From the NCBI GenBank assembly GCA_030549335.1, contig CM060196.1, positions 72,500,139-72,564,138 on the forward strand: a stretch of 64,000 bases of DNA, given 5' to 3'. Position numbers and translations under genes: made by a program. Source of the stretch: Pontederia crassipes (lineage: Eukaryota > Streptophyta > Magnoliopsida > Commelinales > Pontederiaceae). The notes under the pieces are model-generated. The model saw only the letters and a list, made by a program, of their open reading frames with translations, was not told the DNA's origin and ran no database searches. This document shows, piece after piece, positions 1 through 64,000 of the stretch. Positions within the stretch are counted from its first letter, which is position 1. Every line of letters begins with the position of its first letter.

Positions 1-513
1 GAGTAGGAATTCTTGTACACTTCAAATTCTTCCAAAAATTCATGTCAAACTCGATATTGGGCTTCGTCACGACCTGTTATGGTGATTTAATGGCCTAAAC
101 AGAGTTCGAAGTGGATTGAAAATGAGTTTTCACGGTTTGTTAGAGGGTTTTGATGGCCCTTTCAGTGTGGAAATAGTGAATTTAATGGCCCGCGAAGACC
201 TGGTCACGACCGTAAGAAGGTTTTACGGGTCTGTTTCACGGCCCGTTAAAACTTCTTCATGGCCCGTGACAGCCATTTTCACTTCACTCTTTTTGACTTT
301 CTGACTCTGTTTTAACTCCGATTTGAGCGTGATTTACTCCGTTGGTTTCGTAATTCAGTTTTCTTGCTTCCTAGACAATAAAATACAACATTTTGATAGA
401 TTTATAGTTTTTTTAAAATTAATGTAAATAATCCAATGATGCATGCTATTAGAAAATGATTCGAAATGAGATTAAATGCATGGCTAAATATATGTTATAT
501 TTTGCATACATCA
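1..513 (-). mobile_element. LTR (TGATGC family), truncated by window edge
   Basis: The right end reads GCATACATCA at 504-513. It matches the ends of the two LTRs further right (GCATGCATTA at 4063, GCATGCATCA at 5849), and all three are preceded by a similar TATGTTATATTTTGCAT-like stretch. Read on the minus strand this is the start of an LTR beginning TGATG. Bases 60-290 hold scattered copies of a CGACCCGT / ACGGCCCGT motif like the cluster in the 1785-5849 LTR. The left part lies outside the window, so neither the TSD nor the promoter can be checked. No coding sequence is seen. Confidence 0.5.
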
Positions 514-4889: not shown

Positions 4890-5610
4890 AATCAGCACTC
4901 CTAACGGCCTGTGAAGAGATGTTCCTATATTTGGCTTCAGTATGTGCCGCAAAGATTCAATGACGGCTCGTAAGTTAGACCCGTGATCTATATCTACCGA
5001 CTCATAAGGACTTTGACTTGTTCTTTTGCAGGCATAATTCGCGATAGTTGTCCGGTCTACTAATATAACGGGTCATTAGGTACCTATTACGACCCGTAAC
5101 ATTTTTGGCAAGATTACACCTCTTCTATGTGCATTGTAATGGCTGCATTACGCCCGTAATATAACTATGCTCAATTTTCCTCTAATTCTCTATAGGTCAT
5201 TAACCCAATGTTCCGGCCGAGAAAGGAGGGGATCAAAATTTAGATGCGAATTGTAATTCCATATGATGACCTGTTAAATTATTCTTCGGCATAGCTCTTC
5301 AATCTGTGAGACCCGTTACAAATGTGTTACGACCCGTCATGAGATATGTCTTCGTTTAAATAAGATTTCTATTTGTAACGTGAAAGCTTCATAATGACCC
5401 GTAATGATTTCATGAGGGATGAATGGCTCTCTGAAAGGTCATTGAAATGTCCCTAACGGTCCATGTCTTCACTCTGGAGAGCCGTTAAACTGCTCTTACA
5501 GCCGGTGACGAATAAGATGGCGTCTGGTATTCTTTATGTGGGTCGTGAGCTGAGAATTGAGGATCATTAGAATTGGCTGAAGGGGCATTATATACTCATC
5601 ACGGCTCATG
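4890..5610. repeat. CGACCCGT motif cluster in LTR
   Basis: At least ten degenerate copies of ACGACCCGTNA or its complement are scattered over about 700 bp, separated by unrelated 20-80 bp spacers. They are dispersed rather than tandem. Copies are clear near 5090, 5150, 5310, 5335, 5395, 5480 and 5600. Confidence 0.65.
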
Positions 5611-12291: not shown

Positions 12292-14676
12292 TGTAATGCT
12301 TCCAAATTTTATTTCGTCACGTGGCAAATTTTCTTTTTTCAATTGTTACTTTGGTCCTTCTTTGACTTTTTTATTGACCTGAATAAGCGGAAGACTTAAA
12401 ATTAAAATATTACAACATTTAAAATAAGAAAATGCAGAAGCTACAATGAAATATAAGAGTAAATCATAATGTCTCAACATGAGGCATATAAAGTTCATGT
12501 CATATACAACTCAATAGGTCCCATAATAATGCAAATACAACTCGATGAATAAAGGATAAAGAGACTTCATGTAGACTCTATGATAACTATGTGCACACAT
12601 CACCCGAACCGTAGTTGTCGCACACACCTCAACCAGACACGCATCCATATCATGTACCTATGGGGATCACACATGGGACAAACTCAACCGTTAGCATAAT
12701 GCTATGTGTGAATGTGTATAAGTCATAATTTAATTCCATCAGAATAAGCACTAAACAAACATAAATAGGCTATAATAATAAAATCATCATGTAGGACCGA
12801 TCGATTTGGTTCATCATAGTTCCATTTCGTTTCATGTTTATGTTCATTGTTCCATAGTCATTTGTTCATATTCATGGTCATAAGAACAAAATCTTTCCAT
12901 TCATCTTAAGCCATTCATAATTTTTCATCTTATCCTTGGGTTGAAATATCTCTTCACTTTTATGGAATAGTATTGCAAACACACAAGTGTGTAACTACCT
13001 AGAGCATGGTGGGCCACATGGCAGGTGCCCCATAAGGAAGGATGACCTCGTACTAAGCGATAATATTCCTTGGTGGAGATAACCTCTCACTACACGGTAA
13101 CATCTGTAGGAGGAGTGCCTCACAAAAGATTGTCAATAACTCCTCAAGAAAATTGTCTCACACAAGGTTGTCATAACTTTCCATCTACTTTTATCTTTAG
13201 TTAAATCATAAATCTTTCTTTCGATCACTTGGATCAATCAAGGTCGTAGGGAGTAAAGGTGGCTCCGAATCATCTTTAGTTTCACATTTCTAGTAAATAG
13301 AAACATGTCAAATCGATGGTTTATACTAAGGTCATATTCTTTCTATCCATAGATCGGAAGTCCAAATGGATCATTTGATTGATGAGAAATTTAGCGGTCG
13401 TTCGAAAGAGTGGCGAACACTCGTCTCTTTTGTATCCATCAGTGGATCGAAAAGGGTGCGGTCGTCCGTTCTGAATTCATCTGTCGATCGTTCCAAGGCC
13501 ATATACGATCGGTCAACTGGAAATGGTTTGATCGATCGAAAGAGGTTCGGTCATCCATTATATAATGAAGAGGTTTTTGGACTTCTGATCAAGCATTTTG
13601 CCCGACCAAAACTTAACCGGTTGTCCGCTAGAACCTATTATGTCTTCCTCGATCAAGTGGAGATCTTCGTCAACCTTTGAAAGCTTTTTCGTGATAATCT
13701 AGATCGGTCCGACTAGTTATTGCCATCATTTTTGTGTCTCGACATTTTCTAATTTGGTCATCCGAAAGAGTTTCGGACTTCCGCTCTGGTCTATATATCG
13801 GTCGTCCAATTAAGTTTCAGACATTCAATAGAGCTGGATCGGACGCCCAGAAGGAGTTCGATCGCCCGCTTCAGTTCAACAGAGCCACATATCATTGCGG
13901 AATCCTTACATTTTCAATCAAATTTTTCAATACCAACAAGATCAAACACAATCTAACATAGTGTCTAACACATAGTTTGATTTCAGAGACATCATGAATC
14001 TCATTTTCTTTCATATAATATAACTTGTTGATTTCTTATGTTCTAGCATAAATCGATTCCCAATCTATCTTATTTCCAGTCAACATAGACCATCAATTTA
14101 AAGATATGAAATCAATCTTCAAGTAACTATCTAAGTTATGCACTAACAGACCTAATCATTCAACATATTACCAACTCATGTATAACATGCAAAGCATTCG
14201 ACCATGTTCAAGAAATCAGTGGAAAACAGATCTATAGTTCTACAATAAGACTTGATCTATACCCTTAATAGCATGAATCTTAACCACCAATCAATCCTTA
14301 AAGCATGCATAATACATCTAAACTTATCTCATGACCCAGATCTCAAAAACACTTTTATAGTAGTGACCTTCAAATCATAGGTTTTTATGACCTTCAATTC
14401 ATGGGGTTTCGTGCCATAAATGCCTTCAAATCATATGTGGAGGAGTTATAGTCTACCATTATGGTAGTGAAATGGGGAGAGGAAAAGATCAAAATCGAGA
14501 TGTTCTCATTTCTATCTGTTGCACTTCCAAACGTCCAAAGGTGTTTCGATCGTTCAGTGGAGCTTAGGTTGAGTTGTCATCAACGTCACGAGCATATGTT
14601 CCAGTTTCAGACGTCCGAAAGTCCAACGTTAGGAATTTAAAAAGTTTTAAATTCTTTGAATTTTTGGTGTGTTACA
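12292..14676 (-). mobile_element. Solo LTR (TGTAACG family)
   Basis: Runs from TGTAATGCTTCC at 12292 to GGTGTGTTACA at 14676, 2385 bp. Flanks CTTTT (12287-12291) and CGTTT (14677-14681) form a 4/5 TSD. Near 12385 it has the same GCGGAAGACT box seen at 26047. A minus-strand CTATAAAAG near 14354 suggests the promoter points left. A GGTCGTCCGA cluster lies at 13370-13890. There is no protein-coding content; the open frames at 13366-13680 and 13734-13961 are by-products of the cluster. Confidence 0.65.
13370..13890. repeat. GTCGTCCG / TCGATCG motif cluster
   Basis: CpG-rich strings such as CGGTCGTTCG, GTCGTCCGTT, TCGATCGAAAG and GTCATCCGAAAG recur about every 20-40 bp in otherwise AT-rich DNA. 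One or two further copies occur at 14545-14630. Spacers are unrelated to one another. Confidence 0.6.
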
Positions 14677-32699: not shown

Positions 32700-32712
32700 A
32701 ACTCCCCCTTCT
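32700..32712 (-). other. Polypurine tract of copia element
   Basis: On the minus strand AAGAAGGGGGAGTT directly precedes the 3' LTR, the expected plus-strand priming site. Confidence 0.8.
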
Positions 32713-32715
32713 TGT

Positions 32716-33000
32716 TTATGCGAAGGAATCCACCAAGCCTGCATGCTCCCTACAGAACTCGGTCTTCTCTCTCGGTAGAGGCTTCGTCATCATATCTGAC
32801 GTATTCTTGTCAGTATGAATCTTGCGAAGAAAGAATTTCTTTTTCTTCGTCTCATCACGAATCCAATAATATCGAACATCAATGTGCTTGAACTTAGAGT
32901 GAAAATTAGAATGCTTATTCAGATGTATCGCACTCTGATTATCGTAGTGAATAATATACTTCTCCTGCATCAAACCTAAGTCCCTAAAAAATTGTCTCAT
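32716..33000 (-). pseudogene. Copia RNase H C-terminal part
   Basis: Reads HYDNQSAIHLNKHSNFHSK, KHIDVRYYWIRDE and TSDMMTKPLPREK, the standard end of a copia polyprotein. It is out of frame with the upstream reverse transcriptase block: the join near 33000 needs a frameshift. It ends 16 bases before the 3' LTR. Confidence 0.9.
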
Positions 33001-34130: not shown

Positions 34131-34759
34131 CCACTTGTTCTGAGTGCCATCTTCCCTTTAGGAAGCTTCACCAGTTTGTAAGTGTTGTTCTCATGCAGAG
34201 ATTGCATCTCGTCCTGCATGGCTTTCATCCACTCATCCTTCTGCGCATGTGACAAGACTTCTTGATAACACACTGGTTCTCCCCCTTCAGTTAATAACAC
34301 GTACTCAATCGGGGAGTACCGCTTTGACTCTTGTCTTTGTCTGTTCGATCTTCTCAATTGAGACTCTTGTATTGGTGCATCATGCTCGACATGTGGCTCA
34401 TCATCACTATCTTGGCTATCCGAAGTTATATCTGAATTATATGAGCTGCTCTCATTGTTACTGTCATCTTGATCAACTTCTAGAACAATATCATCTTCTG
34501 TCGGTGCATCAACTGAACTCGGTTCAGCTAGATAATCAGTGAAGGTAGTTGGCTCTTTGTCCTTCGACAGATCTTCAATTGTTTGGTGTTCCATGAACAC
34601 AACATCTCTACTTCTGATAACCTTCTTGTTAATAGGATCCCAGAGTATGTAGCCAAATTCTTCACCTGCATATCCGAGGAAGATGCATTCTTTCGATTTG
34701 CTGTCAAGTTTTGACCGCTCATCACTGGGGATGTGAACAAAGGCTCTGCAGTCGAACAC
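34118..34759 (-). pseudogene. Copia integrase C-terminus and RT start
   Basis: Reads KECIFLGYAGEEFGYILWDP (integrase C-terminal region), an acidic linker, RRSNRQRQESKRYSPIEY and WMKAMQDEMQSLHENNTY, the usual start of the reverse transcriptase region. It ends by frameshift at about 34135, where the next frame takes over. Confidence 0.9.
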
Positions 34760-34817
34760 TTTGAAATGCTTATATGAAACATCCTTCCCTAATTAGACTT
34801 TCAGAGGTATGTCACCA

Positions 34818-35366
34818 TCAGAGGTATTGATGGTGAGTGATCAGTTCGACTACAGTCATCATTGCTTCACCCCAAAATCCCTTCGATAGCTTGGCATGTA
34901 GAAGCATACATCTGATGCGTTCCTCAATTGTTCTGTTCATTCTCTCAGCAACACCGTTTTGCTGAGAAGTCTTGGGAACTGTCTTCTCAAGCTTGATGCC
35001 ATAGGTGTTGCAGTATTCTTCAAAAGGTCCTCTGTATTCGCCGTCATTATCTACTCGAATACACTTGAGCTTCTTGCCAGTTTTTCTTTCGACTTTGGCA
35101 TGAAACTTTTTGAACTCTGCCAACACGTGATTTTTGTGTGCTACAGGAAAAGCCCAAACTCTTCTAGAATGGTCATCAATAAATGTAACAAAATAAAGTG
35201 CACCACCTAGAGTTTTATCCTTCATATAGCAGACATCAGTATGCACCAAATCAAGTACGTGTGAACTTTTAGACGAAGAAGTTCTATTAAATGTAACTCT
35301 AGTCTGCTTACCAGCCAAACAATGGACACATACGTCAATTGAAGTGTCTTTCATACTTGGTAGCAA
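34818..35366 (-). pseudogene. Copia integrase core
   Basis: Includes the end of the zinc-binding region (VCVHCLAGKQ) and the DDE core: LVHTDVCYM (first D), RVDNDGEYRGPF (second D; usually DNGGEY) and SQQNGVAERMNRTI (E). The upstream HH half is in the interrupted stretch 35366-35398. It ends at 34818 by frameshift, shortly after the GFWGEA motif. Confidence 0.9.
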
Positions 35367-35397
35367 ATTTCGTTGAGTTAATATCTGAAGTCCTTTC

Positions 35398-35838
35398 TCA
35401 CCTATGTGACCAAGCTGCTTGTGCCATAACTCCAGAGGATGACATCTTTTGAGTCACGTTTATCTCCTTGGTGCAGTGTTGTGCTTCAGCCTTGTAGAGT
35501 GTACCATCTTTGTTTCCTTTCGCCAATAGGAGTGAACCTCGCATGAGTTTCCACACTCCTCCTTTGAAGTTGCTTTTATAGCCGTCATCGTCTAATTTTC
35601 CAACTGAAATTAGGTTGAGACGGATCTCAGGTACATGTCTCACATCTTTGAGCACAATCTTGCATCCGGTATTGGTCTTCAACTGAATGCCTCCGACGCT
35701 AGCAATTTGGGACTCCGACTTGTTCTCCATCTTTACTGACCCGAATGCTCCCTCTCTGTATGTTGAGAATACATCTCTGCGAGGGGTAACATGGAATGAA
35801 GCTGCAGTGTCTAAGATCCAAACTGAATATTGACTCAC
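35398..35838 (-). pseudogene. Copia aspartic protease region
   Basis: Contains WILDTAASFHVTPRR followed by KDVRHVPEIRLNLISVGKLD and FKGGVWKLMRGS, typical of the protease and the start of integrase. The catalytic motif, normally D-S/T-G, reads DTA here, another likely inactivating change. Confidence 0.9.
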
Positions 35839-36119
35839 AATATTGACACATCTTCTTCCTCTTCTTGAGTAAGAAAGTATACATCATCTGATGTAGCCAC
35901 TGCAACGTTGTTTCCACCACTGCCCTTCTTCTCCTTTTCAGCATCTTCAGACCCTTCATGTGATTGATCACGCTTTAATTTTCTGCACTTCTTCTTGAAG
36001 TGTCCTGGCTTGCCACAATGATAACATGTGATCTCTTTTCTGGACTTCGATTTGCCTCTTGACCTTGATCTAGCGTGACTGTGAGAGTTTCTCTGTTTGT
36101 TTCTCCCATGATCTTCCAC
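35835..36119 (-). pseudogene. Copia gag C-terminus with zinc knuckle
   Basis: Has a CCHC nucleic-acid-binding knuckle CYHCGKPGHFKKKC at about 36026-35985, after an Arg/Ser/Lys-rich stretch. Then an acidic tail ending DVYFLTQEEEEDVS. Confidence 0.95.
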
Positions 36120-36715
36120 GATGAATGCCTCTGATTTATTGTTGAGATTCTGCTCTTGCTTCTCGTTTCTTCATTGAACAAACTATCCTTGATAGTTTCT
36201 AAAGATAGTTGTCCACCTAGAGCAGAGTTGTTCAGAAAGATAACGAGCGTTTCCCAATTATCAGGTAAAGAACTCAGCAGTAGTAGTGCTTGGATCTCAT
36301 CTTCAAACACAATCTTCACTGAGGACAACTTATTAATTAATTTCTGAAAACTACCAAGATGTTCTGCAACAGAATGACCATCCTTGTACTTCATGTTAAC
36401 AAGTTTCTTCATCAGTAACACCTTATTCTGCGACGATTTACCCTCATACATTTCTTGCAATTTTTTTCACACTTCATCGGGTTCATCGATATTTGTAATA
36501 TGATGAAACACCTTGTCGTCGACCCATTGTCGAATTTGTGCGACTGTCTTGGTCTTAATCCTCCCCCACTTTTTATCATCCATGTCCTCGAGCTTTGTAG
36601 CATCACCTTCGATTGGATCATAAAGGTCTCTGGAATTTAAGTAATCCTTCATCCGAGGCTTCCAGATAGAATAATTTGTTCCTGTGAGCGAGCACAGGCA
36701 TTCGACTAGGGGCAT
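35975..36715 (-). pseudogene. Copia gag N-terminal half
   Basis: Starts at 36715 with GTNYSIWKPRMKDYLNSRDL (the usual W-K-M box). A frameshift near 36464 separates it from the next block (36460-35975), which reads LVNMKYKDGHSVAEHLGSFQ and LLLLSSLPDNWETLV, standard UBN2/gag features. A further frame change leads into the zinc-knuckle block. Confidence 0.9.
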
Positions 36716-36750
36716 TATTGTCCTCCATTATAATGTGCACTTTATGACTA

Positions 36751-36763
36751 GGCTCTGATACCA
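36751..36763 (-). other. Primer-binding site (initiator tRNA-Met)
   Basis: TGGTATCAGAGCC on the minus strand, one base inside the 5' LTR. It matches the 3' end of plant initiator tRNA-Met, the usual copia primer. Confidence 0.95.
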
Positions 36764-36764
36764 C

Positions 36765-37430
36765 TGTTGGGAAAAAAGACTGAATTGATAGTTGCGGAAT
36801 TATCTTCTTTTTCCCCTTTTAATGCGCACAATAATAATGGGATGATGACAATAATATAGCAGAATTAAATCAGACCAAAGACGCAGAGAATTAACGTGGT
36901 AAATTCCTCAACGTGAGAGAAAAATCACGGGAGCAAGGAAATCTTCCACTATAAAATAATAGTAGGTTACAAAGTATCTTCTCTGAACTACGCAGACGAT
37001 TACAATAATGATCTCAAGAATTAATCTTGGATGCCACAGAATAAAAGTCTCTTGAAACTGAGGATAGAAGTCAGAACGATCTCACCGGAATATGAGGAAT
37101 AGATGAGAAGGCTGCTGAGAAGTAATGTTTGAAGTTTCGTCGAGAATGGATAAGAACTCGTTCCCGAAACGAACCCCAAAATTCTCTTCTCTCTCTTCTC
37201 TTTTTCTCTCTCCTCTCGGTGGCTTTCGTTCCGATGTTGCGCACGACGCTGTACATCCTAGCATGAAGGGATGTCATCCTTTTATAGCTGCTTGAGAGGA
37301 CAACTTGTAAGTCTTCAACTCGGATATGAATATGTTTTCTTCCCTTTTTTTTGTTTCCTATTCGACGTCGGCTTTGTTTTTTTTCCTTCCTACTCGTTGT
37401 CGGACACGTATAAGCAAGAAACATCCAACA
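36765..37430 (-). repeat. Copia 5' LTR
   Basis: Runs from TGTTGGGAAAAAAG to CATCCAACA at the outer end, 666 bp, with intact terminal inverted bases TGTTGG/CCAACA. Confidence 0.95.
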
Positions 37431-38159: not shown

Positions 38160-38540
38160 TGACCTGCACTAGGACAAACCCGGGGCTATTTCACTTTCTC
38201 CAATTTCTATATCAAAATCCGGATCGGGTCCGGTAAAACTCGAGTCCTTGTCCAATTTTATATCAGTCATTCAAATCGGGCCGGGTCAAGTAGAACCCGG
38301 GCCGGATCGGCTCGGTTTCAATCTATTGTCAGTAAGACTTCGAAATCCGAGCCGAATAAGTCAGAACTCGATCCGGTTCTATTGATTCAATTTTGCATCG
38401 CACTCAAGTAAGGAACCTTGGCCGTACCTATGGGAACCCGAGCCGAGTTCATGGAACCCAGTCCGATTCCTACTATTTTTGGTCCGAATTCTATTGAACT
38501 CGGGCCGGGTAAAATAGAACCCGAGCCGAGTTCTGTCGTC
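38160..38540. repeat. TCGGGCCGGGT motif cluster
   Basis: In the right part of the split LTR, CCCGGGCC, TCGGGCCGGGT, GAACCCGAGCCG and TCCGGATCGGGTCC recur every 15-35 bp, separated by unrelated AT-richer bases. Confidence 0.6.
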
Positions 38541-40574
38541 ATCAAAAGATTGTGTTTCCGATAACTTTTGGTCATCCTATTTATGCCATACGATATCTAA
38601 TGAATGCAAATAATATATCAATGTAATATCTATATAACGGAGAAGAGCCTAGGGGTCCATGTCGCGGAAAACCGATGCCATGGGAATCTCCCACGTACCT
38701 TAAGTTGGTTGAAAAATCATGTTCCTGTTGTCTATGGACTGCATGGACGTCGCGATTTTGGCCTACGATTCCTCCCTATTGATGTTCATAAACCTTAGGC
38801 TACCACTTGGATCTTATTCTCCTCTGTCAGGTGTTTCGATTTGTGAGAAAACGGAGAAAAAAGAGTAGGCTCTCATGCAGAAATTTTGTGGAGGAAAATA
38901 TTATTTTCTAGTCATTCTTTAGACCTTATTTATAACTCTCAACTAGAGGTTTTGACTTCTATTGGGCCTTGAACTATTTTTCCATCAATCATGACCATCC
39001 ATCATTAATTATCATTTCTTAAATATTCATATTTAATTAAATTCGAATTTAATTAATTATTTCATAATCATACTTATCAAAAATTCATTTCTATTCAAAT
39101 TTCTTTTTATCTCTTTCATATCTTCTTTCCATCAAACTCTACTTTTATTTTATCCTTTTTTTTTTCTTTTCTCTAATTTTCGTAATTATTTAATATGATA
39201 AGATTTTATCATATAATTTTCGAAATTATTTAATTCCACTATATTTTATAACTTAATTTTTGGATTAAAATAATAATAAATATTTGGATTAAATATTATT
39301 TTAATATTTTTAAGATATAAAACTCTCAATCCTATCTTATTTGAGAGTCCTATATCCATAATCTCAAATCAAATTGAAATTCCTAATCTCAATCTAATTA
39401 TAATTTTTACTCCCAAGAAGATTTAATCTTTCTTTTTTTCACCAAATACTCTAATTGAATTATAACATTACTATATTGTCCTTGATAAAATCGTGGGGTG
39501 TTACATTATACTTTTCCAAGATCATATCCTTAGACAAGTGTTTAGAGTTGACTTGTATTTTGTACACTTTCTCTAGTATTACTTTTGTTTTTACAGTTTT
39601 TGTCAAAGTATTATTTTTCCATCAATAATTATTATAAATTGCTTTGAATCCATCTCTAATACGTATTTATTTTAGGTCAACTTTGTAACGCCTCCAAAAT
39701 CGTCCCTCCTGCCACGTAGTCAGGTTGACCCCGGGAGCACTACACTGCCTGCTACATTATTGACCATAATATGATCTTGACCATTCAACAATTTGGATAC
39801 ATGGCAACAAATATAATAATAAAATATAATCAAAGACTTTATTGCAGAAGCTTAAACATCAGAATATCAAAGGCATAGATTATTAATGTAATCTATAGTA
39901 AGGAAGGAAAAGACCACGATCTCTAACAAGTTCAACATTTGCAAATAAGTTCGACAAGCGAAACAACATAATGTTTTTCCAAAACAAGAATGGATATTAG
40001 AATAGATGCAATGAAGAGAACTAGATTATATAAGCAAGTCATGTGCAGCATTCTCCAAGCCCTGTGCCCTCCAACACCTCATCAAGTGGAATTCTCACCT
40101 GCAAAATTCCAATGCAAGGGAATCGAATACCCATGAGCAAAGACGCCCAGTAGAATAGAAGCATAAATAATGAAATAATAATTCAATGATGGATGTATCA
40201 CAAATAGACGAGCAATGAATAATGTGCCATGGATTTATATACTTTGATTGTAACAAATGATAGGTCATGCTTTAATCATATCAGTACATGTACTCTATTC
40301 TTTACCATGACTATGCCTTGTCTTTACTATGCCTCGCCTTGGACTTTACTAATCAATGTGTTAGCTTTGTCATGCTATGTTTCGTGCTTTACTATACCAT
40401 GTTTTGTACTTTTCTATATTGTACTTTATTGTGCATTACTTTACTGTGAGTTGCACTATGACTTTTACATTACTATATTGTCCTTAGAGTTAGTTATTCT
40501 ATGCGAGTTTGACTTTATTAGGTTGGGATGCTAGAGGTGCCTCTCTGAATCTGTAAATATAGTTAGCCCACTTT

Positions 40575-40870
40575 GGGAAAGGAATGTGTCAATACATCAC
40601 CCTTTTCGGAATACAAGTGGGAGAGGACCTGTACTCCAGGAACAGTGGTCATTTAAGAGTTTGTAGGTTCACTGTCTCCTCAGCTAGCTACCTGACATTC
40701 TGGCTCGGTACTATGAAATTATGTTTCTATGGGGAAAGGAGTGTGTCAATGCATCACCCTTCTTTGAGACACAGGTGGGAGAAGACCTGTAACTCAGGAA
40801 GAGTAGTCATCAAAGATCAATAGGTTCGTTGTCTCCTCAGCTAGCTACCTGCCCCTTCTATGCAATACTG
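40575..40870. repeat. Tandem duplication, 157-bp period
   Basis: Copy 1 (40575-40731) and copy 2 (40732 to about 40870) both begin GGGAAAGGANTGTGTCAAT and share CATCACCCTT and GTCTCCTCAGCTAGCTACCT. Confidence 0.85.
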
Positions 40871-41199
40871 TGATCTTTGTTTTATACTTTGGGGCGGCAC
40901 ATAGCAATCCCGTAGTTTCATTTTTGTCTTACTTGTCTTTGTTTATCTTTACTGGAATTTAGAATCATAGGTCAGAACCCCAGAAAGGTACTTATGTCCT
41001 TTATAATAGAACTCGACCGGTTGAAGGTAATCCAGTTCGAGTCATCTGTTTAGAGTCAAGAGCGTGACTCGGGCTGAGTCGAAGTTCGATTCTGGCCATG
41101 TCAACATTTGTACATTGTAATCGGTTCAAGACCTACCTATTGGTTTGGTTGGTCCAAATCTATTAGTTTGAACCGACCGGTCTGAAGCGATTGGTTTGG

Positions 41200-41710
41200 T
41201 TAAACCGGTTGATCTGAACCGATTGGTTCACCTGAACTAGTTGGTTCACCTAAATCGGTTTGTTCGCCTGAACTGGTCGATCGTCCTCTGGACCAGTCGA
41301 CCATTTCTTCGTGGTCCAATCGACCTAAACCGATCGACTTGGGTCGGTCGACCGTTCCTTCTGAATCGGTCGACCGTTCCTTCTGAATCGGTCGACCGTT
41401 CGATGAGACCGGTCGATCGCTCTTTTTGGACCAGTCGACCATCTTCTTCGTCACCATCCTGTCGGATCGGTCAACCGCATCCATGGGACCGGTCGATCGA
41501 TCATCGTAGGGCCTTCACGTCTTACCGGATCGGTCGACCCCTCCACTTGGATCGGTCGACCGATTGAAAGATCACAGCGGTGCATTGCGCTTGCTGGATC
41601 GGTAGACCGATTAGCTTGAATCGGTCGACCAATCGTAAACAAAAGCTTGTCCACCAACTCTAAGATCGGTCGACCGTTCATGATGAATCGGTCGATCGGT
41701 TCTGCGGCTA
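41200..41710. repeat. CGGTCGACCG palindrome cluster
   Basis: About 20 copies of the palindrome CGGTCGACCG or one-mismatch forms (GGTCGATCG, AGTCGACCA), spaced roughly 15-40 bp. A short tandem part near 41340-41400 repeats CCTTCTGAATCGGTCGACCG. The open frames at 41200-41567 and 41451-41801 are artefacts of the repeat. Confidence 0.85.
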
Positions 41711-42286
41711 AAACAGAGCCGTCGGCCTTCTTTTCCAATTTCGGCCGGCCTTCGGCCATCAAATCACAACGATAATAATATAAAAGATGTAGCTTAGGCA
41801 ATCATGAACTTAATAGGTTCCTTGTACGCATCAAATGATCAATATTTCATCGTCTAAGGGATTAAATTTTCTAAGGTACCTTTCTCATCGTTAGGAGTTC
41901 GTCGGCGGTTTGTTCGTCGTCCTCCGACCGTCGGTCGTTCCTGGCCAGTGGGGATGGTACGCCTGGTCCTCGTGAACACATCGGGGATTGTCTCGTGCAC
42001 GCCCGTCGTCCACTGTTCGTCGCTGTCGTCGTGCCCTACTTCGCCTTTGCATCGTTCGTCGGAGGAAACGAAGAAGGAGAAGAGGCAACAGGCGACGGCT
42101 GGTCGGGGTTTCCAAGGGGGCGCGAGGGCTCCCCCTCGCGTCCCTTTTATAGCCTCGGCCGGCCCTTTGGCCAGCCGAATCCGAGACGCCATCGGGGGAG
42201 GAGATTCCTTATTTCTTTCATTAATTGAGTATGATTTGATTTTCAAATTCTTTCCTTATATAGAATTTGTGAAGCGTTACAAACTT

Positions 42287-42631
42287 GATCGTTTATTTGT
42301 GTCTTTTAGCAATTTAATCAACCAAGAGAATGACATCCCCATCATGATTAGAAACCATATGTTCGGCACATATTAAAATCTTTTATAAAATAAGAACCAT
42401 CATGACCCATGCACCTCATTGGAGATGACTCCTCAGATAAACTTGGTGGACGCCCTTTGAATTAAATTGTTGGTTCACAATTCATAGCATATTTTCTATG
42501 TATGGATGCATATTGGTTGATCTTGGGAGCTCACGACCAAAACTTACTAGGCATGCAGGACACTATAACGGACTTGACAGAATATGGGAGCGCCGATTTT
42601 GTAACCCTGCTTTCATTTGGACCACCACCCG
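42287..42631. other. Host spacer between LTR and CACTA
   Basis: Has a short open run continuing from 39672 across the LTR site (LDRLFVSFSNLIN) and another at 42553 that continues across the CACTA site at 46561. Neither is recognised, and either may be chance. Confidence 0.3.
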
Positions 42632-44144
42632 CACTACAAGAATTTTACGACCAAAATCTTTGAAATTCGTTGCAAATATACCTTTGCGACTGATTTTTGA
42701 GGGATAGTAGTTTGTTGGAAATTAAACTACTAGAAAGAATTATCGACGGTCCTAAAATGTCCCTTCGGTAATTTCGATGGATGTCTGTGATGGATAACTT
42801 GCCTTCAAAATTTTCTGCGGATAGAATCCGTCAAAAGTTCTGAAGGAAATGTCATCCTTTGAAACTTCCAACGGATTTTTCTATCGAAAGCTCCTAATCG
42901 CGCCGCCGAAATCGGATGAGGGAGTGTTGACCCTTCGCAGGTTCCAATGGGTTTCGAAGGGAGAACTGGTCGAAACCTTCGACAAGAGAGCACCCGTCAA
43001 AGCCTTCGAGGGGTGAGCGACCCATCGAAGCCTTCAACGAACGATACCCATCATAGGCACCGACGGAGTGTGATGGATACATTCGTCAAAAAGTTTTTTA
43101 AAATATTAAGAAATAGGTTGCCTACTGCCAGATAGGCGCTAGCGATCCGAAGCATGCGGTCGAAATCAAGAAAGAGAGAGGGAGAGGGGATGGGGAGGCG
43201 CCATCCAGCCCAGGGTCGCGGCAGCTAGCCGGCCACGGGTGTGAACAACGTCGGGCGCCCCGATCCGACCGTAAATAGATGCCAGGCGACCTGATCCGGC
43301 CACCACGGCAATCTGTTGCTAGGCGGCCAGATCCGATCATCACGGCCATGAACAGACGCCAGGCACCTCAATCTGGCCTGCGCGCTGGAACCTCCACCTG
43401 TGCGTCGGATATGCCATCCACGCGCTAGATCCGCTGCTCGCCCGTCGGATCCGCCGCCCGCGCACCGAAGATTATCGATAATAAATTATATTATTTTAAT
43501 TACTAATGGGTAGTTCCTTCTAAATTATCGATGGATGCTAAATCATTTGATATTTTCGAAGGAATTATCCTTCGGTAAATAAAATAATAGTATATTATTA
43601 ATGTCTATAATATAATACATATCTCTCTTCCATTTACTTAAAATATTTATAATATGATATTATATTACTAATGTTTATAATCATGTATATTAATACATAT
43701 AATTAATATCAATATATATACTATTATTAATGTTTAATAATATTATTATATATAAAAATATGGATAAGAAATGATGTTATTTTAATTTCCGACGGTTAGT
43801 TCCTTCGAAATTACTGACGGATGCTAAATGCTTCGATAATTTCGAAGGCACTATCCTTTGGTAAATAAAATAATAATTTAATAATAGAATTGTGAATATA
43901 TACTTATATTATATTAAATATTTATTATTATAAATATAATTATTGATGCACGAAAAATCATGCATTAGTTTAGGCCATTTGGTTAGCATTTTAGAATGTT
44001 TTTATGTTTAGAAAATGGGGAGTTTTGATTTGTTTTCATATAATTTCACAAAGATTTATTACTACCTAAGCTTGATTAAATTCATAACAAGAAATGGAAA
44101 TACGCTGGAATTTGGATGAAAAAGTCACAGAAAACAACTTTTAG

Positions 44145-44325
44145 CAGCTGTCACGGCCATGCAAATGGATGTCACGCCCGTGCGATGAAGAATGCCTACC
44201 GAGCGGTTCGATCCTTCTGTCACGGCCGTGCGGTATGTCGTCACGCCTGTGGAGCGCAAGACCAAAAATTCATGTTCTGTCACGGCTGTGCCAGCTAAAT
44301 TTCACGGCCGTGAAGGCGGTCTGTT
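44145..44325. repeat. CACGGCCGTG palindrome cluster
   Basis: Six or seven near-copies of GTCACGGCCGTG (GTCACGCCCGTG, GTCACGGCTGTG, TTCACGGCCGTG) at about 20-40 bp spacing, ending about 70 bp upstream of the TATA box. Confidence 0.85.
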
Positions 44326-44398
44326 AGGCCGTTTTAAAGCGGTTTTTATTCACTTTATGAATATATTTTCGATTTCTTTCCTTGGGAGACGAGAAAAC

Positions 44399-44408
44399 CT
44401 ATAAAAGG
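44399..44408 (+). promoter_or_regulatory. TATA box of solo LTR
   Basis: CTATAAAAGG, followed by a purine-rich leader as in LTR promoters. Confidence 0.6.
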
Positions 44409-45669
44409 AGGCATAAGAGGACCTGGAAAAGCATCTTTGGAGGGCAGAAATCATAGGTTCAAGGCTTGGTGAAAGAGATCCAAAGGCTACAACGAAGTTC
44501 TGCCGAAAACTCGAGAGAGGACGGTAGAATTAGGAGTAGTTCTTCTTGTTCTCTATCCTTTTCCTGAAATATTATTTAGATTGATGTACCCTAGTTTATT
44601 AGAGTAGTTCTTTAGGATTTTCTTGATTGAACCATATTTTTTGTGAATTTTTCATACAATTATTTGATGGATCAATAGTTTGAAGATTTGATTAATTGTT
44701 ACCCGAGATTTATTCTTTTGAATCTTTTGATTATCTGAAAAGAAGTTTTTCGATTCTCTAGAGTTTTTCTCTGATTTTTCCTCTTACATGCCACTCTTGG
44801 GGAAATCGCAAGAGACCCAATTGTGTTGTTGTTAAGGTGACTTGAGAAAGCCCTTAACTTTATATTCCAGTTGAGTGCATTTTGTAATATAATAAATTAG
44901 ATTAAAAACTGAGAGGGTTAATCTCTTTTGTTGACTTCAAAATAGAATTTAAAGCATGAAATATTTGTTAAATCAATTTGGGAATTTTACTTTATTAATT
45001 CATCATCTTTTGTCTAGAATTCGTACATAAAGTAGTGGTATTAATTAAGTTAATTCTTATTCATCAATTCTACAATTTTAAACCCCATTGATCATAACTC
45101 TATATTTATATTATTTACTTTTCTTATTTTTACAAAACACAGAGTTATTATTTCTTCTCAATTTCTAAGTAAGAGAAGTTATTAATTATTTATTGTCCTC
45201 GTGGGAACGATACTTTATACTCATCATTTTATTACTTGAACGATTAGTGCGCTTGCTAGTGTTTCTAAGTCCGCATCAATTACTAACGGGTCTAGCCTTC
45301 GAAATTACTAACAGATTTAAACCCTTCAGTAATTTCGAAGGTTATACTCATCGAAAATGTATCGACGAGGATTTGTCATCCATAGTAAAGAAGGACTTTT
45401 TGGCCTTTGGTGTTGGGTCAAAGTTTTAATACCATATAAAATTATATTTTAATGATACAAAGCTCAAAGGATTAAAGTTAAATGCTGAGAAAATTTAAAT
45501 AAAATGGATAACTTTATGCACTACACTTTGATTAAATAATTGACACTGGTCTTATTAGATTCTGAATGAATCATGAATATCAAAGTTGTAGAGAATCTTA
45601 TTAAAAATCCAAGATTATCTAATTTGGATAATTATGCAAAAAGTTATGCTCAAAATAGTGCATGATGAT

Positions 45670-45850
45670 CAACCTGTCGGTCGACGCAAAGAAGGTCGAT
45701 CGAAGATATACCGGTCGACCTATTGAAGATGACAGTCGATCGACAAATACATGAGTTTTCTCGGTCGCGTCGAGACAATACCGATCGACCGACCATGGGC
45801 AGAAGTTGAAGAAATGAGTGCAACGGTCATATAGATTGGTCGATCTGTTT
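45670..45850. repeat. GGTCGACC / GTCGATCG cluster
   Basis: About eight copies (GGTCGACGC, GGTCGATCG, CGGTCGACC, GTCGATCGAC, CGATCGACCGACC) end about 85 bp upstream of the TATA box. Confidence 0.8.
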
Positions 45851-45934
45851 ATTACTCAAATGAACAGTAACTGTTATATTTCAAGGAGAAAAATGTGGAA
45901 TAAATTCTGGACAAATTTTCCACATGCTAGAGCC

Positions 45935-45944
45935 CTATAAAAGG
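45935..45944 (+). promoter_or_regulatory. TATA box of solo LTR
   Basis: CTATAAAAGG, the same decamer as at 44399 in an unrelated LTR. Confidence 0.6.
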
Positions 45945-46560
45945 AGTGCCAAAGCCAGAAGCAAAAGTATCTATCCAAGCATTGAAACAAAACTTCAGGA
46001 AATCAAAAGATCATTTCTCTTGGAGTTATCATCTAGAGCTTTCTTTCTTTCTCCCTTCTCTTCTTGTGAGTGTTCTATTATGAAAGAGAGAAATTATTTT
46101 TTAGAAAGATTGTGAGAGCTCTTGTGTAAAAGAGGTTCCAAATCTTACCTCTTGAGCGAGAGAAAAGATTAGCTTCTTAGGATGAGAGATTACCTTGTCT
46201 TTCGAGGTCGAGAAGTCAGAGTGGAGACGTAGACCAAGGTGCGGCCGAATCTCATCAATAACCATCGTATGTTCGTGTTTGATTTTCTCTCTCTCACTCC
46301 CTCTCATATTATGTTTATTATCTGAATTGCTTTGATTTAAAAAATTAACTAATTAGTTTTGTGCTTCCGCGATGGTTTTCGTGAAATCGATATTTTCAAT
46401 AGAACACCAATTCACCCCCTCCCCCTCTTGGTGCCCTTTGGGATCCTACATTCGGTAATTCAGAAGAATCTTCCTATCCGTCGCAATTGCCATAAAAAAA
46501 TGCGAAGGATTCGTGTGCTTCGAAAAATGTCCATCGCAAATTAGGCATTTTCTTGTAGTG

Positions 46561-47498
46561 CCGCTTCTTCTCAATGTCTATCTCAGTTATATCACAAATG
46601 GGAGTTAAATTTCACTAAATGCTTTCCAATGCCACTTTTCAGTTCTATCCTTTATTTTTATTTTGTAAATACGATCCTTCAACTATGAATTTATTTCATC
46701 AACTATCCTTTTTACCTATTATAGTCTGTTTCGACTTGTCAGGTCTACGTGGCAGTCACACCTTGTGCATATCTCTCCTCGACGTGTCTGTCTATGTGAC
46801 ATGGCACCATAACAAATAATACAAATATAAAAATAATATTATAATACAAAATAAAAAAGAGGAGAGAGGCACAAACTACTAATAATCGCCAGAGATGGAA
46901 AGCCAATGGCCGAGGGGGAGGGGGGCGATGCCTCTTGTCAGCATAGTCGACGAGCTTGCCAGTGACGCAAAATGAGGTGCGCCACCCCCCTCTGTTCGCC
47001 GGTGACACAACGAAAGAGGGGGCATTTCACATCGTCGGCAATGCAAAAAATGGGGGTCGTCGCCCCCATTCGATGTGTCATTGGCAACGTGCAAAAAAGG
47101 GGGCCACTATAGCATCCTCGGGGACTCGCAGCAGATGCAAGATTTGTAATGCCCAGGGCACGGGAACACAATGGAACACAATAACGATGACCATAATAAC
47201 AATAGAATCCATAATTGTACATGGCCAACATCATACACAATTTGAATGAAATGTATATGTATTTTTAATTTATTTATGTTTACCTATTGAGCTGTGTCAC
47301 TAGAAATTAAGTTAAAAGAAATATTGTTGTCACTGCATTGGACCTGTGTCAAGCAGTGAAATAAAGGATATTGATGTGCTACTATGATGTTTGGGTGCTG
47401 CTTTGCTTTATTATCATTTGCTTTCTTTCAAGCTTATCGGGATTAATAAGGTTAACAAACTTTTTTGTGATAGAATATTTTTATTATGAGAGATTCTA
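46561..47498. other. Spacer; start of duplicated unit A
   Basis: 46.69-46.80 kb resembles dispersed plant repeat text; 46.87-47.12 kb is GC-rich, with open frames in several phases but no domain. From about 47260 the sequence matches 61430-61690 (for example GGATATTGATGTGC against GGATATTGACGTGC), showing it belongs to an old tandem duplication. Confidence 0.6.
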
Positions 47499-47773
47499 TG
47501 TGATAACTCAAAAAAAAAAAAAACAACCATCTAAAAGCCCATCAGCTAGAAGCCGAGCCATGGACAATAAACTCACGTAAACCCACCTTTTCCTATCCCT
47601 AAACTCTTTTCTTTGTGTCCATGCCTTCCTCCTCTCCACAAGCTCCGCACAGCAAGATGTCCATCCATTTCCCCACCAGTTCAAGCAAATTCAGGCACAC
47701 ATCTTCGCAAGTGGAAACATAGGAGATCGGCGGCGTAAAGGCAATGAGACGAACAACAATTGGTTTCTCCTCT

Positions 47774-48610
47774 CACTACAAGAAAATTACCATTTTTCGA
47801 CGGACAATTTCCGACGGATAAAAATCCGTCGCAATTTGCAACGGATAGAAATCCGTCGCAATTTGCGACGGATTTTGCGACGAAAATATTTCCGACGGAT
47901 TTTCCGACGGTTACGATCGTCGAAAATAAAAATAATAAATTATGTAATTTGTTATATTATTATTTTATTTTTCAACGATTAGAAATGTCGATATTTCCGA
48001 CGGATACGCATCTGTCATAATTTTCGACGGATTTTCCGACGGTCGTGGCCGTCAGAAATGAAAATACTAAATTATGTAATTTGTTATATTATATTTTATT
48101 TTTCGACGATTAGGAACGTCGATATTTCTGACGGATACCCATCCGTCGCAATTTTTGATGGATTTTTCGACGGTTAGGACTGTCAGAAATTAAAATACTA
48201 AATTATGTAATTTGTTATATTATTATTTTATTTTTCGACGATTAGGAACGTCGATATTTTCTACGGATATCAATCCGTCGCAAAATCCATCGTAATTTCC
48301 GACGGTCATAACTGTCGGTAAATGTATAATAATATAATATGAGGATTATTTTATTAATATAATTTGCAACAGTCCAAATTGTCGTAATTTTCGTGGGTTC
48401 CAACCGTCGGTAATAATAAGCGACTGTTCAAATCGTCGGTAAAATAAAAAATAAATAGTATATATAACTAAATATAAATTAAATAATTTTTGACGGTCAC
48501 AACCGTTGATAACTTTAAAAATAATTCATATTTGTATTTCCGACGGTCAGAGCCATCGGTAATTAAAATTCCGTTATCCCGCTTTTTTTTCGTTTTCCCG
48601 CTTTCTCATC

Positions 48611-48648
<38 letters not shown>

Positions 48649-49372
48649 CCCCATCTCCTCTCTCCCTCTCCCGGCCCGCGAGCACCGGACGTCATCGACC
48701 GCCGACGACCCTCTCCCTCTTCCTCTCCCGGGCGACGAGCCTCTGACCATACGTCATCGACCACCGGAGATCCTCTACCGCGCCGGCGTCTCTCTCTCGG
48801 CCCCTGCAGGCGGCCGGATCCGGCCGCGGGCGTTCGGATCCAGCCGCGGGTCCTCGGCTGGCTGGCAGTCGAGATCGTGGCGTTGGCCGCCGGCCGGCTA
48901 ATTTTTTTAAAATTATAAAAATTCTTAACGATGATTTTGATCATCGAAACTTTGGTGGTCACCGGACGACCACCGAAATTTTTGGGGATAGCAACCGCCG
49001 CGAATATCGGCGGTCACGACCACCGAATTATCGACAGTTTTGTAGACCGTCGCAAATATTAGCGGTCGTAATCGTCGGCAAATGTATAATAATATAATAT
49101 GAGGATTTTTTTATTAATATAATTTGCAACAGTCCAAACTGTCATAATTTTCATGGGTTCCAACCGTCGGTAATAATAAGCGACTGTTCAAACCGTCGGT
49201 AAAATAAAAAATAAATAGTATATATAACTAAATATAAATTAAATGATTTTCGACGGTCACAACCGTCGGTAACTTTAAAAATAATTAATATCTGTATTTC
49301 CTACGATCAGAGCCGTCGGTAATTAAAATTCTGTTATCCCGCTTTTTTTCGTTTTCCCGCTTTCTCATCTTT

Positions 49373-49409
<37 letters not shown>

Positions 49410-50006
49410 CCCCATCTCCTCTCTCCCTCTCCTGGCCCGCGAGCACCGGACGTCATCGACCGACGACGACCCTCTCCCTCTTCCTCTCCCGGGCGACGAG
49501 CCTCTGACCGGATGTCATCGACCACCGGAGATCCTCTACCGTGCCGGCGTCACTCTCTCTCTGGCCCGGACCGCAGCGGCCAGATGGGCTGCCTGGCGGC
49601 CGGATCTGGCCGCGGGTGTTCGGATCCGGCCCTTGGGGGCCGGATCCGGCCGCCGGTCCTCGGCTGCTGGCAGTCGTGATCGTGGCGTTGGCCGCTGGCC
49701 GGCTATTTTTTTTTAAATTATAAAAATTCTTAGCGACGATTTTGACTGCCGAAACTTTGGCGGTCATCGGACGACCACCGAAATTTTCAGAGATAGCAAC
49801 CATCGCAAATATTGGCGGTCATAACTGTCGGAAATCCATTTAAATTTATGGCGGTTCTTTCCCAACTGTCGGAAATGATTTGCGACGAGCATTTTTCGAA
49901 TGTTTTTTATTCCGTCGAAAAAACCGTCAGAAATGCCATTGTCGACAGTTTTACGGGAAATTACAGACGGTTTCGACCATCTGTAATTCCCCTATTTCTT
50001 ATAGTG
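47774..50006. mobile_element. Non-autonomous CACTA, TSD TCT
   Basis: Left end CACTACAAGAAAATTACC, right end CCCTATTTCTTATAGTG, TSD TCT on both sides; 2233 bp. Both ends carry dense CGACGGATTT / CCGTCGGAAAT subterminal repeats. The interior has a direct duplication of about 760 bp. No transposase coding; the minus-strand frames at 48606-48962 and 49334-49803 are composition artefacts. Confidence 0.9.
48321..49800. repeat. Internal 760-bp direct duplication
   Basis: AATGTATAATAATATAATAT starts at 48321 and again at 49081. Each copy has CGACGGTCA repeats, a (TA)n run (48614-48648; 49374-49409), then a GC-rich block with GGCCGGATC strings and TCGCCGGA-type repeats. Confidence 0.9.
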
Positions 50007-50439
50007 TCTTCTCTCCTTGCGTACAAGATCCAGACTCCCTCTCTCCTTCCTCTCACAGGCTCCTTTTTATGGCCGATCTATTGCAGCAAGAGACCCGTCA
50101 CCAAGAGAGGAAGGACAAGCTAGTGCATGGATACTGAGAAGGATGACTGATCAATGAAGAATGGATTAACTATATGAAAAAAGGTGGGTGAATTTAAATC
50201 ACCTTGTATAATTTTTTATAGGATCTGATTAGAACTCTGCTCCAATTGATTACGTTAATGAACCGATGATGATCAAATGAACGAAAGTCGAATCGATATG
50301 TTTTCTTCCTTTTTCCTGATTGTAATTGCTCCTTGGTTAGTCTAGGAATTGGATTCTGCTTATTATTACCTTGCTTGATGACTGCTGTAATGTGATAGTG
50401 TGTCTAGGATAAGGATCTATGAATTATTTGTGATTTTGT

Positions 50440-50790
50440 TATGCTGAAATCGAGCGTCGAACCCCCGTCGGCACGTCCGTGATCTTTTCTTCACAGCCAT
50501 GCCAATACTAATACGCCTGTACATTCGGTAGCACGACCGTGCCACCTCTCCTGTACGTCCGTGCCAATTTGCAGGCACGCCCGTGCGGTCAGGCCAAGGG
50601 TATGCGGCTAAGTAAAAATCCGGTCGACCGACCCAAATGGATCGATCGACCGACGTCCTGTTTGAGCACACTCGTGACACTACATGGGTACGCCCATGCA
50701 GCTGCCTTTCCTTGTAACAAACTAGCACGCCCGTGCCAAGCCACAGATCAGTCGATCGATATATGGAATCAGTCGACCGAGAACCTCGAG
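50440..50790. repeat. Mixed CACGNCCGTG and TCGACCGA cluster
   Basis: GCACGTCCGTG, GCACGACCGTG, GTACGTCCGTG, GGCACGCCCGTG and AGCACGCCCGTG alternate with CGGTCGACCGACC, TCGATCGACCGA and CAGTCGACCGAG. It combines the motif types of the 44145 and 41200 clusters in one LTR. Confidence 0.8.
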
Positions 50791-52960: not shown

Positions 52961-53284
52961 TAATTTGAACGGGGCACAATGCGACGAGATGCTATATTGA
53001 TAAATAAAATATCATACTAAAAAATTTGAAAAAGACTTTTAATGAGCGTCTCAATGACGTCGCATCCTTGGGACGCTACCACTGTGGAGACGCCCCGCTA
53101 TAGTGTCTCTACGTTGGCTTAGCGACACATTAGCTTCTCCATAGCGCCGCACTAGCCAAATTTTGATAGAAACGATGCCTACATTGCGTCTACGTAGCGT
53201 CACGTTCTTGGGAGACGCTAAAAAATTTACTTAAATCCCTAACCCCTCTTCTTCGTTTTCACTTTTACTATTTTACTCGCGCCC

Positions 53285-54110
53285 CTCCGACGCCTGACCT
53301 CCGACCTCCGACGCCCGACGCCCGACACTCGACGCCCGACCTCCGACGCCAGACCTCCTCCTCCGCCGCGCCGACGTCCGCCTCCGCGGCCCTCCGCCTC
53401 CTCCTCCACCGTGCCCCTCCGCCGTGCCGACGTCCGCCTCCGCGGCCCTCCGCCTCCTCCTCCACCGTGCCCCTCCGTCTTCACCACCTCCTCCTCTGAC
53501 GTGCTCCCTCCGTCTTCGCCTCCTCCACCGCGCCCCTCCGCCTACTCCACCGCCTCCTCCATCGCGCCCGTCCGCCACCTCCACCACGCCCCTCCACCAC
53601 CCTTCACCGCCTCCTCCGCCTCATCCACCGCCCTCCGCCACCGCCCTCCACCGCGCTGACGTCCACCTCTGCCTCCACCGCCGCCTCCTCCTCCTCCTCC
53701 CTCCGCGCTGACGTCCACCTCCGCCGCCTCCTCCACTGCGCTGACGTCCGCCCTCCGCCGTCGTCTGCCTCCACCGCATCCTCCTCCGATGTCCGCCCTC
53801 CGCCTCCTCCACCACGACCGTCCGCCTAGTCCACCGCGCCCATCCGCCACCTCCACCGCGCCCCTCTGCCGCCTCCATCGCGCCCCTCCGTCGCCCTCCA
53901 CCGCCGCCTCTGCCTCGTCCATCGCCCTCCACCGCGCTGACGTCCGCCTCCGCCTCCACCACCGCCCTCCGCCACCGCCTTCCACCGTGCCGACGTCCTC
54001 CCTCCGCCTCGTCCGCCCTCCACCGCCGCCTCCTCCTCCACCACCGCTCCTCCTCTGTCGGTCGTCGTCTACCACTTTCCTCCACCGTCGTCTGCCACCA
54101 TCCCTCACTA
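53285..54110. repeat. CCGCCTCCTCCACC minisatellite, strand-skewed
   Basis: About 825 bp, almost only C/T plus CG pairs on the plus strand. Units such as CCGCCTCCTCCACCGCG and CTGACGTCCGCC recur throughout. All six frames stay open for long distances (Pro/Ser-rich on plus, Arg/Gly/Glu-rich on minus), so the frames are not evidence of genes. Confidence 0.9.
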
Positions 54111-63913: not shown

Positions 63914-64000
63914 TTTCAGCAACATCTGCACGAACTCCTCACTTTCGAGTTTTGCACTGTGGAAGTAGCATTTTCTTGCTTTGTCCTCCAGCTCCTTCAG
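63914..64000 (-). pseudogene. Second DUF247 gene fragment, cut by window end
   Basis: Minus strand, reading into the window: LKELEDKARKCYFHSAKLES, then EEFVQMLLKD, after which similarity stops at about 63914 with a TAG/TAA. It aligns with LRSLEERARRCYFHS...EEFLQMLLRD of the gene at 22489-23846 (its bases 23514-23600). The following downstream part of the family domain is absent, so this copy is truncated; the upstream part lies beyond the window. Confidence 0.8.

Follow-up and report, generated by a model that had tools for sequence, protein, structure and literature searches.

Arrays of CpG-rich dyad boxes in Sirevirus and Ty3-type long terminal repeats of Pontederia crassipes

Introduction

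Several long terminal repeats (LTRs) in a stretch of Pontederia crassipes DNA (GCA_030549335.1, contig CM060196.1, positions 72,500,139 to 72,564,138 of the forward strand; the whole 64,000 nucleotides are called the window) contain regions in which short CpG-rich motifs recur. This raises the question of what such clusters are and why retrotransposons of different families carry them. The answer favoured here, with a probability of roughly 0.6, is that they are arrays of CpG-rich dyad boxes of the repeated motif (RM) kind, present in one Sirevirus family (C) and in at least two Ty3 families (A and B), and read by putative dimeric host factors. Each box would be bound by a dimeric host protein; with boxes about 21 bp apart, two such dimers would sit on one side of the DNA helix, and the array may drive or open the LTR promoter. 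In RNA copies, the palindromes would pair together and feed small-RNA silencing, under which the arrays would grow, shrink and change.

Arrays and their host LTRs

Each cluster was compared with 200 dinucleotide shuffles in two tests, one counting the commonest 8-mer with 1 mismatch allowed, the other scoring the best 5+5 palindrome (gap 0-3, ≤2 mismatches, maximum over all palindromes). The shuffles reaching the observed 8-mer count were 0/200 for each of clusters A, B, C and D, and the palindrome test gave 0/200 for A, B and D and 3/200 for C. Among the eight cluster hosts, LTR bounds are settled for A, B and C only. The features concerned, with target-site duplications (TSDs), are as follows.

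39684..42281, minus strand: solo LTR A, ends TGTAACGC...GCGTTACA, TSD AACTT/AACTT, Ty3 chromovirus-like family
41274..41698, unstranded: array A, 15 boxes CGGTCGACCG at ≤2 mismatches, 5 of them exact; 0/200 in both tests
42143..42151, minus strand: TATA box of LTR A, TATAAAAGG, ~130 bp from the LTR 5' end, as read from the sequence
43944..45278, plus strand: solo LTR B, TGATGC...GCATCA, TSD ATTAT/ATTAC, Ty3 family
44152..44312, unstranded: array B, boxes CTGTCACGGCCGTGACAG with core CACGGCCGTG; 0/200 in both tests
44400..44408, plus strand: TATAAAAGG of LTR B, 87 bp beyond the last box, likewise a sequence reading
45411..46450, plus strand: solo LTR C, TGTTGG...CCTACA, TSD TTTGG/TTCGG, Sirevirus
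45678..45846, unstranded: array C, degenerate CGGTCGACCG boxes, 5 at ≤2 mismatches; 0/200 for 8-mers, 3/200 for palindromes
45936..45944, plus strand: TATAAAAGG of LTR C, 144 bp past the last ≤2-mismatch box and 89 bp past a weak one
50440..50790, unstranded: array D, in which GGCACGCCCGTGCC-type boxes occur alongside CGGTCGACCG-type ones; 0/200 in both tests

The repeating unit is a dyad box and not the strings first quoted for these clusters. Box profiles are sharp-edged for CTGTCACGGCCGTGACAG in B and looser-edged for CGGTCGACCG in C, and a box GGCACG-CC-CGTGCC can be read by eye in array D. Counted as exact strings on the plus strand of the whole window, CGGTCGACCG occurs 6 times (5 in cluster A, 1 in D, 0 in C) and CACGGCCGTG twice, both in cluster B, while GTCGTCCG, CGACCCGT and TCGGGCCGGGT occur 1, 2 and 2 times; cluster C holds one exact GGTCGACC. 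The last ≤2-mismatch box of array C lies at 45782-45791 and its last weak box, TGGTCGATCT (3 mismatches), at 45837-45846. The sequence-only reading of the window had described the motifs as dispersed and not tandem, which is right in part: array A contains 2.6 perfect tandem units of 22 bp, so that duplication also contributes.

Besides its identical TSDs, LTR A shows an 8-bp terminal inverted repeat. Its element probably reads on the minus strand, because one stretch resembling a primer-binding site (PBS) lies beside the LTR of the relative L088 (labels of this form denote individual loci) and because of the strand of the pol open reading frames (ORFs) that lie between two relatives (L089). 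On the element's own strand, array A is located about 445-870 bp downstream of the TATA box, which is also present in L005, the sole relative examined for it. A placement of array A upstream of a plus-strand TATA at 41779 was dropped, since the PBS-like stretch and the pol strand both point to a minus-strand element; in that stretch just 1/10 further A copies has a TATA-like site.

Family assignment

The LTR starts TGTAACG, TGATGC and TGTTGG are confirmed, and the earlier claim that the hosts are different families holds: C has a copia-type gag and B a Ty3-type gag (one copy each), and Ty3-type protease, reverse transcriptase (RT) and RNase H lie between two A LTRs. Judged by its junctions and gag, family C is a Sirevirus. 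Its gag (PF14223, 1.4e-21) was found in L073. The accessible text of PMC2829016 defines the Sirevirus polypurine tract (PPT) as AGGGGGAG then AT/TG and the 5' LTR junction as CA/ATTGG then TATCAGAGC; both are exact in L073 and each has one change in L074. A further Sirevirus feature, boxes before a TATA box, appears in C as boxes in 29/29 arrays with a TATA-like site in 23/29. The internal parts of L073 and L074 measure 2.1-2.6 kb.

Family B carries a Ty3-type gag (PF03732, 3e-17, in L069, one copy) and a PBS and PPT other than those of Sireviruses. Its PBS, TGGCGCCGTTGCCGGGGA, which we take to be of the Athila type, is present within 1-3 changes in L069-L072, whose internal parts span 1.2-2.8 kb. 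For family A, neither copia-type gag or pol nor Sirevirus junctions were found; the adjacent pol, between two A LTRs on one contig, consists of RVP_2, RVT_1 and RT_RNaseH. From their position and strand, these Ty3-type ORFs probably belong to the flanking A LTRs; family A is provisionally classed as Ty3 chromovirus-like.

The sequence after array D matches at ~70% the LTRs of a ~1940-bp family (L003, L004, L006, L007), with termini that are presumably chromovirus-like. In the middle 2.7-2.9 kb of the D relatives L075 and L076 no ORF >101 aa was found, and the lineage of D is consequently read from its termini. Among 8 places carrying CGGTCGACCGN6CG that were examined, one belongs to family A, one to C and four form two LTR pairs of D; the remaining two, L001 and L008, are assigned to no family, and in them the box types are mixed, as judged by eye.

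Spacing between neighbouring boxes

Genome-wide counts refer to the genome of the source plant (1.13 Gb, 43 contigs). Pairs of CGGTCGACCG lying 12-42 bp apart number 6587, versus 3 for the reversed pattern, and pairs of CACGGCCGTG in the same range number 688, versus 0; the control CpG palindrome CGCTCGAGCG gives 3 and its own reversal 91. Of the 50 pairs listed first for each box, taken along contig C1 for CGGTCGACCG and contigs C1-C3 for CACGGCCGTG and hence not a random sample, 44 CGGTCGACCG pairs are spaced by 20-23 bp and 37 CACGGCCGTG pairs by 21-22 bp. Grouping of like spacers among the listed pairs leaves 18/23 groups (CGGTCGACCG) and 12/20 groups (CACGGCCGTG) within these ranges, and a coarser grouping leaves 9/15 for CGGTCGACCG, the equal-spacing expectation being 4 in 31. 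Within the fetched arrays, neighbour gaps of 20-22 bp amount to 52/123 in A, 75/129 in B and 54/194 in C. The ~21-bp neighbour rule is common to two distinct dyads whose spacers are largely unrelated.

Close pairs of mixed type number 67 genome-wide (control 0) and are mostly 24 or ~41 bp apart. A mixed box vocabulary was considered as a rule and rejected: compared with 6587 and 688 unmixed pairs, the mixed ones are few, and those listed represent few spacer kinds, so that mixing is the exception.

Retention of the boxes and distance to the TATA box

Relatives were searched in the plant's own genome with the LTR parts without the array as queries. The first look gave 7432 candidates for C, 2488 for B and 4491 for A; the best-scoring 40 of each family were scored, and 30 C, 30 B and 10 A further copies out of these were read. 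Arrays lie between conserved flanks in 29/30 C loci (L028, without a left anchor, was left out) and in 30/30 B loci, and are present in 10/10 further A loci. All further copies examined (29 C, 30 B, 10 A) thus keep the array, and the cluster-free copies that would have told against the sequence-only reading did not appear. At ≤2 mismatches, a copy holds 4-11 boxes in C, 2-8 in B and 9-17 in A. The boxes are confined to the array in both families for which flanks were compared: at ≤1 mismatch, 120 are found in 6165 bp of B arrays vs 0 in 20.4 kb of flank, and 145 in 9229 bp of C arrays vs 0 in 19.7 kb.

Evolutionary comparisons between copies were restricted to arrays of like length (13/29 C and 14/30 B), and no significance is attached to them, the copy pairs not being independent. 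Counted by transversions, the boxes are more alike than the spacers, with identities of 98.3 vs 95.5% in C and 97.6 vs 92.9% in B.

The position of the array relative to the TATA box, called by regular expression in the copies, is also largely constant in B and C. A TATA-like site lies 75-90 bp past the last box in 25/30 B copies, at 86-87 bp in 22 of them; among the 23 C copies with such a site, 19 have it at 87-89 bp and the others at 2, 3, 107 and 144 bp, and no site was called in 6/29. Of the eight misses listed, five read TTATAAAAGG and three are otherwise changed (L011 has lost its TATA). The window's own C copy is of the 144-bp type unless the weaker box at 45837 is counted. According to the accessible text of PMC2829016, the island edge in Sireviruses lies on average ~45 bp past the last box and the TATA box 37 bp past the island; these averages sum to ~82 bp, vs mostly 86-88 bp in B and C. 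The expectation of one fixed place across families nevertheless fails, since the last box mostly precedes the TATA box by ~87-88 bp in B and C and the array follows it in A.

Evidence for and against DNA binding

Three observations together favour DNA binding by putative dimeric factors: the spacing register of close neighbours, the persistence of the boxes among copies and, in B and C, the distance to the TATA box. The strong RNA folding of the arrays described below also fits the favoured explanation, as do the published RM boxes, which are dyads ahead of a TATA box and include one identical to CGGTCGACCG. Several observations weigh against this interpretation. Gaps of 20-22 bp make up only 54/194 in C, and the other gaps are not helically phased (24, 45, 55 and 12 bp in C; 37 and 45 bp in A), so that the rule concerns close neighbours; moreover, only the first contigs are represented among the listed pairs. 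When all changes are counted, the C boxes are barely better kept than the spacers (85.1 vs 84.6%), and transversions are no more frequent in the C spacers than in the left flank (95.5 vs 93.9% identity). The location of array A downstream of the TATA box, seen in A and one relative, shows that an array need not lie upstream, and a simple upstream-promoter role therefore does not fit all families. Finally, RNA-stem covariation receives no support: complementary double changes show no excess, in a test limited by its mismatch filter.

Alternative explanations

The best-surviving alternative, serious though unlikely, is that the palindromes act as RNA, with box hairpins templating small RNAs and no DNA-binding protein involved. 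The arrays do fold far better than their shuffles: the mean folding z is -8.1 in B and -3.8 in C, vs -1.2 and -0.05 for the flank controls, and z < -2 is reached by 28/30 B and 27/29 C arrays vs 6/30 and 1/29 controls. Strong folding of this kind is what many mutually palindromic boxes are expected to produce, and it agrees with the description of maize Sireviruses, whose palindromes are small-RNA hotspots in the accessible text of PMC5311732 and PMC10760457. However, hosts that silence through such structure should favour loss of the boxes, which are instead kept; a surplus of compensating double changes is missing; and hairpins need no 21-bp register across largely unrelated spacers.

The methylation of the CpG dyads offers another explanation, in which the boxes would determine LTR chromatin by attracting or repelling methylation. 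Box CpGs show fewer transition differences than flank CpGs, as would be expected if they were less methylated or better kept: 0.270 in C, vs 0.339 in the right and 0.750 in the left flank, and 0.258 in B, vs 0.371 and 0.464. Transitions at CpGs in two D pairs number 1/33 and 3/30 in the arrays vs 6/42 and 7/48 in the rest of the LTR. Taking into account that the difference is modest, that the copy pairs are not independent and that selection on the box yields the same sign, this explanation is considered decidedly unlikely.

Neutral repeat growth, by which slippage and unequal exchange would have spread a functionless CpG-rich unit in fast-changing parts of the LTR, appears improbable. It is compatible with the perfect 22-bp tandem of array A and with the wide range of array lengths (68-298 bp in B, 204-421 bp in C). 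On the other hand, boxes and spacing persist while the spacers are largely unrelated, the boxes change less by transversion than the spacers, and the same decamer is published for a Vitis Sirevirus (PMC2829016, accessible text). The question of whether an array changes faster than the remainder of its LTR within a single insertion receives a mixed answer. In LTR pairs 1.3-4.2 kb apart, which are not necessarily single insertions (L029/L030 look like a local duplication), array length differs by up to 93 gapped bases, other pairs showing no difference; the array is less alike than both flanks in 3/4 B pairs and not in the fourth, nor is it less alike in the C pair L033/L035, which has the 93 gapped bases, or the D pair L006/L007.

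An origin of the clusters as fragments of one satellite inserted in several LTRs is scarcely credible and was rejected for A, B, C and D: although unmasked arrays (≤10 per family, 2 for D) give 97 BLAST hits between A and C, 94 between A and D and 50 between C and D, array B matches none of the others, and once the boxes are masked none of the six pairings between families gives a hit, vs 12 (A), 13 (B) and 30 (C) hits within families (6 arrays each, other scoring). These four families share boxes and not spacers, which excludes a single inserted satellite, the second outcome that would have spoken against the sequence-only reading.

Relation to known systems

The arrays of dyad boxes belong to a kind known since 2010. 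As far as the accessible text of Bousios 2010 (PMC2829016) goes, palindromic RM boxes precede the TATA box in Sirevirus LTRs; they were found in 13 Sireviruses, were called Sirevirus-specific and absent from classic Copia elements, and their role was left open. The arrays described here resemble them in being palindromic, many-copied and CpG-rich, in having a CGG-CCG core and in lying within the LTR before the TATA box (B, C), and the Vitis RM, CGGTCGACCG, is the box of A and C. They differ in occurring also in the Ty3-type families A and B, where a restriction to Sireviruses does not hold, and in following the TATA box in A; the accessible part of the same description contains no statement on inter-box distances. 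Maize Sireviruses likewise have variable LTR palindrome arrays with strong predicted RNA structure, in the accessible text of PMC5311732 and PMC10760457, but their motif is CACCGGAC-GTCCGGTG and their small RNAs have been measured, whereas the present arrays are known from sequence. The structured regions of Helitrons have that palindrome, too, as their most frequent motif (PMC10760457, accessible text), so sharing across types of transposable element (TE) is not unprecedented. The same text cites older studies on cis-regulatory arrays, sometimes palindromic, in several TE families; like the present ones, these are short repeats in TE regulatory regions.

No paper on like arrays in Ty3/gypsy elements appeared in listings of the open-licence literature. 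As far as these listings show, the Ty3-type carriers and the 21-bp register are new. CpG-rich repeated motifs occur in the LTRs of cotton gypsy elements, a point for which no confirming paper was found. The VANC/VANDAL system of Arabidopsis is similar in that short, family-specific motifs are dispersed in non-coding TE DNA, and different in that VANDALs belong to the Mutator-type DNA transposons and encode their binding protein themselves.

Should Ty3 elements indeed share these boxes and their spacing, the reader is more likely to be a host factor than one particular to Sireviruses, and the 21-bp register offers a concrete probe for finding it. With more than 6500 close pairs of one box type in the genome, any such factor would touch many LTRs. 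Less likely than not, and offered tentatively, is a wider proposal: that unrelated retrotransposon superfamilies of this one plant share a host-read code, a small set of CpG dyad boxes paired at a distance of two turns of the helix, with a dimeric host factor reading each box. Families would converge on boxes or trade them, some (D, L001, L008) holding two types.

Other clusters and features of the window

The remaining four clusters are listed below.

13370..13890, unstranded: array E, degenerate CGGTCGTCCG / CGATCGATCG dyads in an LTR without settled bounds; 0/200 for palindromes, 8/200 for 8-mers
38160..38540, unstranded: array G, GAACYCGG-CCGRGTTC dyads by eye; 1/200 in both tests
4890..5610, unstranded: array F, loose TTACGACCCGTAA-like dyads; weak, 12/200 for 8-mers and 7/200 for palindromes
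60..290, unstranded: cluster F0, CACGGCCCGTG-like dyads; 7/200 for 8-mers and 31/200 for palindromes, the latter not significant

The claim of clustered motifs accordingly stands for six of the eight clusters, is weak for 4890-5610 and does not extend to 60-290 as palindromes. Taken literally, the motifs given for E, F and 60-290 cannot be retained; most copies are degenerate, and the strings are pieces of looser dyads. Among 25 random window stretches put through the palindrome test, 5 beat all 20 shuffles, all five with AT-only palindromes. For the host of array G, an LTR-like end, GGGGTGTTACA, was found at 39505, and no start was found.

An LTR-like stretch at 2173-4066 (minus strand) resembles the surroundings of F by eye, with the place of the F dyads taken by a 28-bp tandem unit (3615-3703); the palindrome test shows no significance for 3400-3780 (53/200 shuffles). 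The Copia element at 32076-37219 (minus strand), with LTR parts 94% alike and pieces of gag, integrase and RT, has no dyad peak and serves as a negative example.

Two CACTA-like elements are present.

42632..46560, unstranded: CACTA-like element, ends CACTACAAGAA...TTCTTGTAGTG, TSD CCG/CCG, with LTRs B and C nested inside; its right end is an inverted-repeat arm
47774..50006: CACTA-like element, TSD TCT, subterminal TCCGACGGA dyads from 47801, 131-bp tandem repeat at 47888-48283

The left arm of the second and the right end of the first show 77% complementarity. The subterminal repeats of the second resemble the arrays as repeated short CpG dyads and differ in being located in DNA-transposon ends, where they are presumably read by the element's own transposase.

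The window has a GC content of 0.35 and a CpG observed/expected ratio of 0.95, which seems high for a TE-rich plant stretch. About 770 bp at 53284-54055 are rich in CCTCCGCC, with many overlapping tandem periods. Coding sequences in the window comprise those for Copia proteins, a tnp2-type transposase piece and a DUF247 gene (22761-23852, minus strand, 2.4e-69); the stretch 63911-64000, cut by the window end, is 81% alike to part of this gene.

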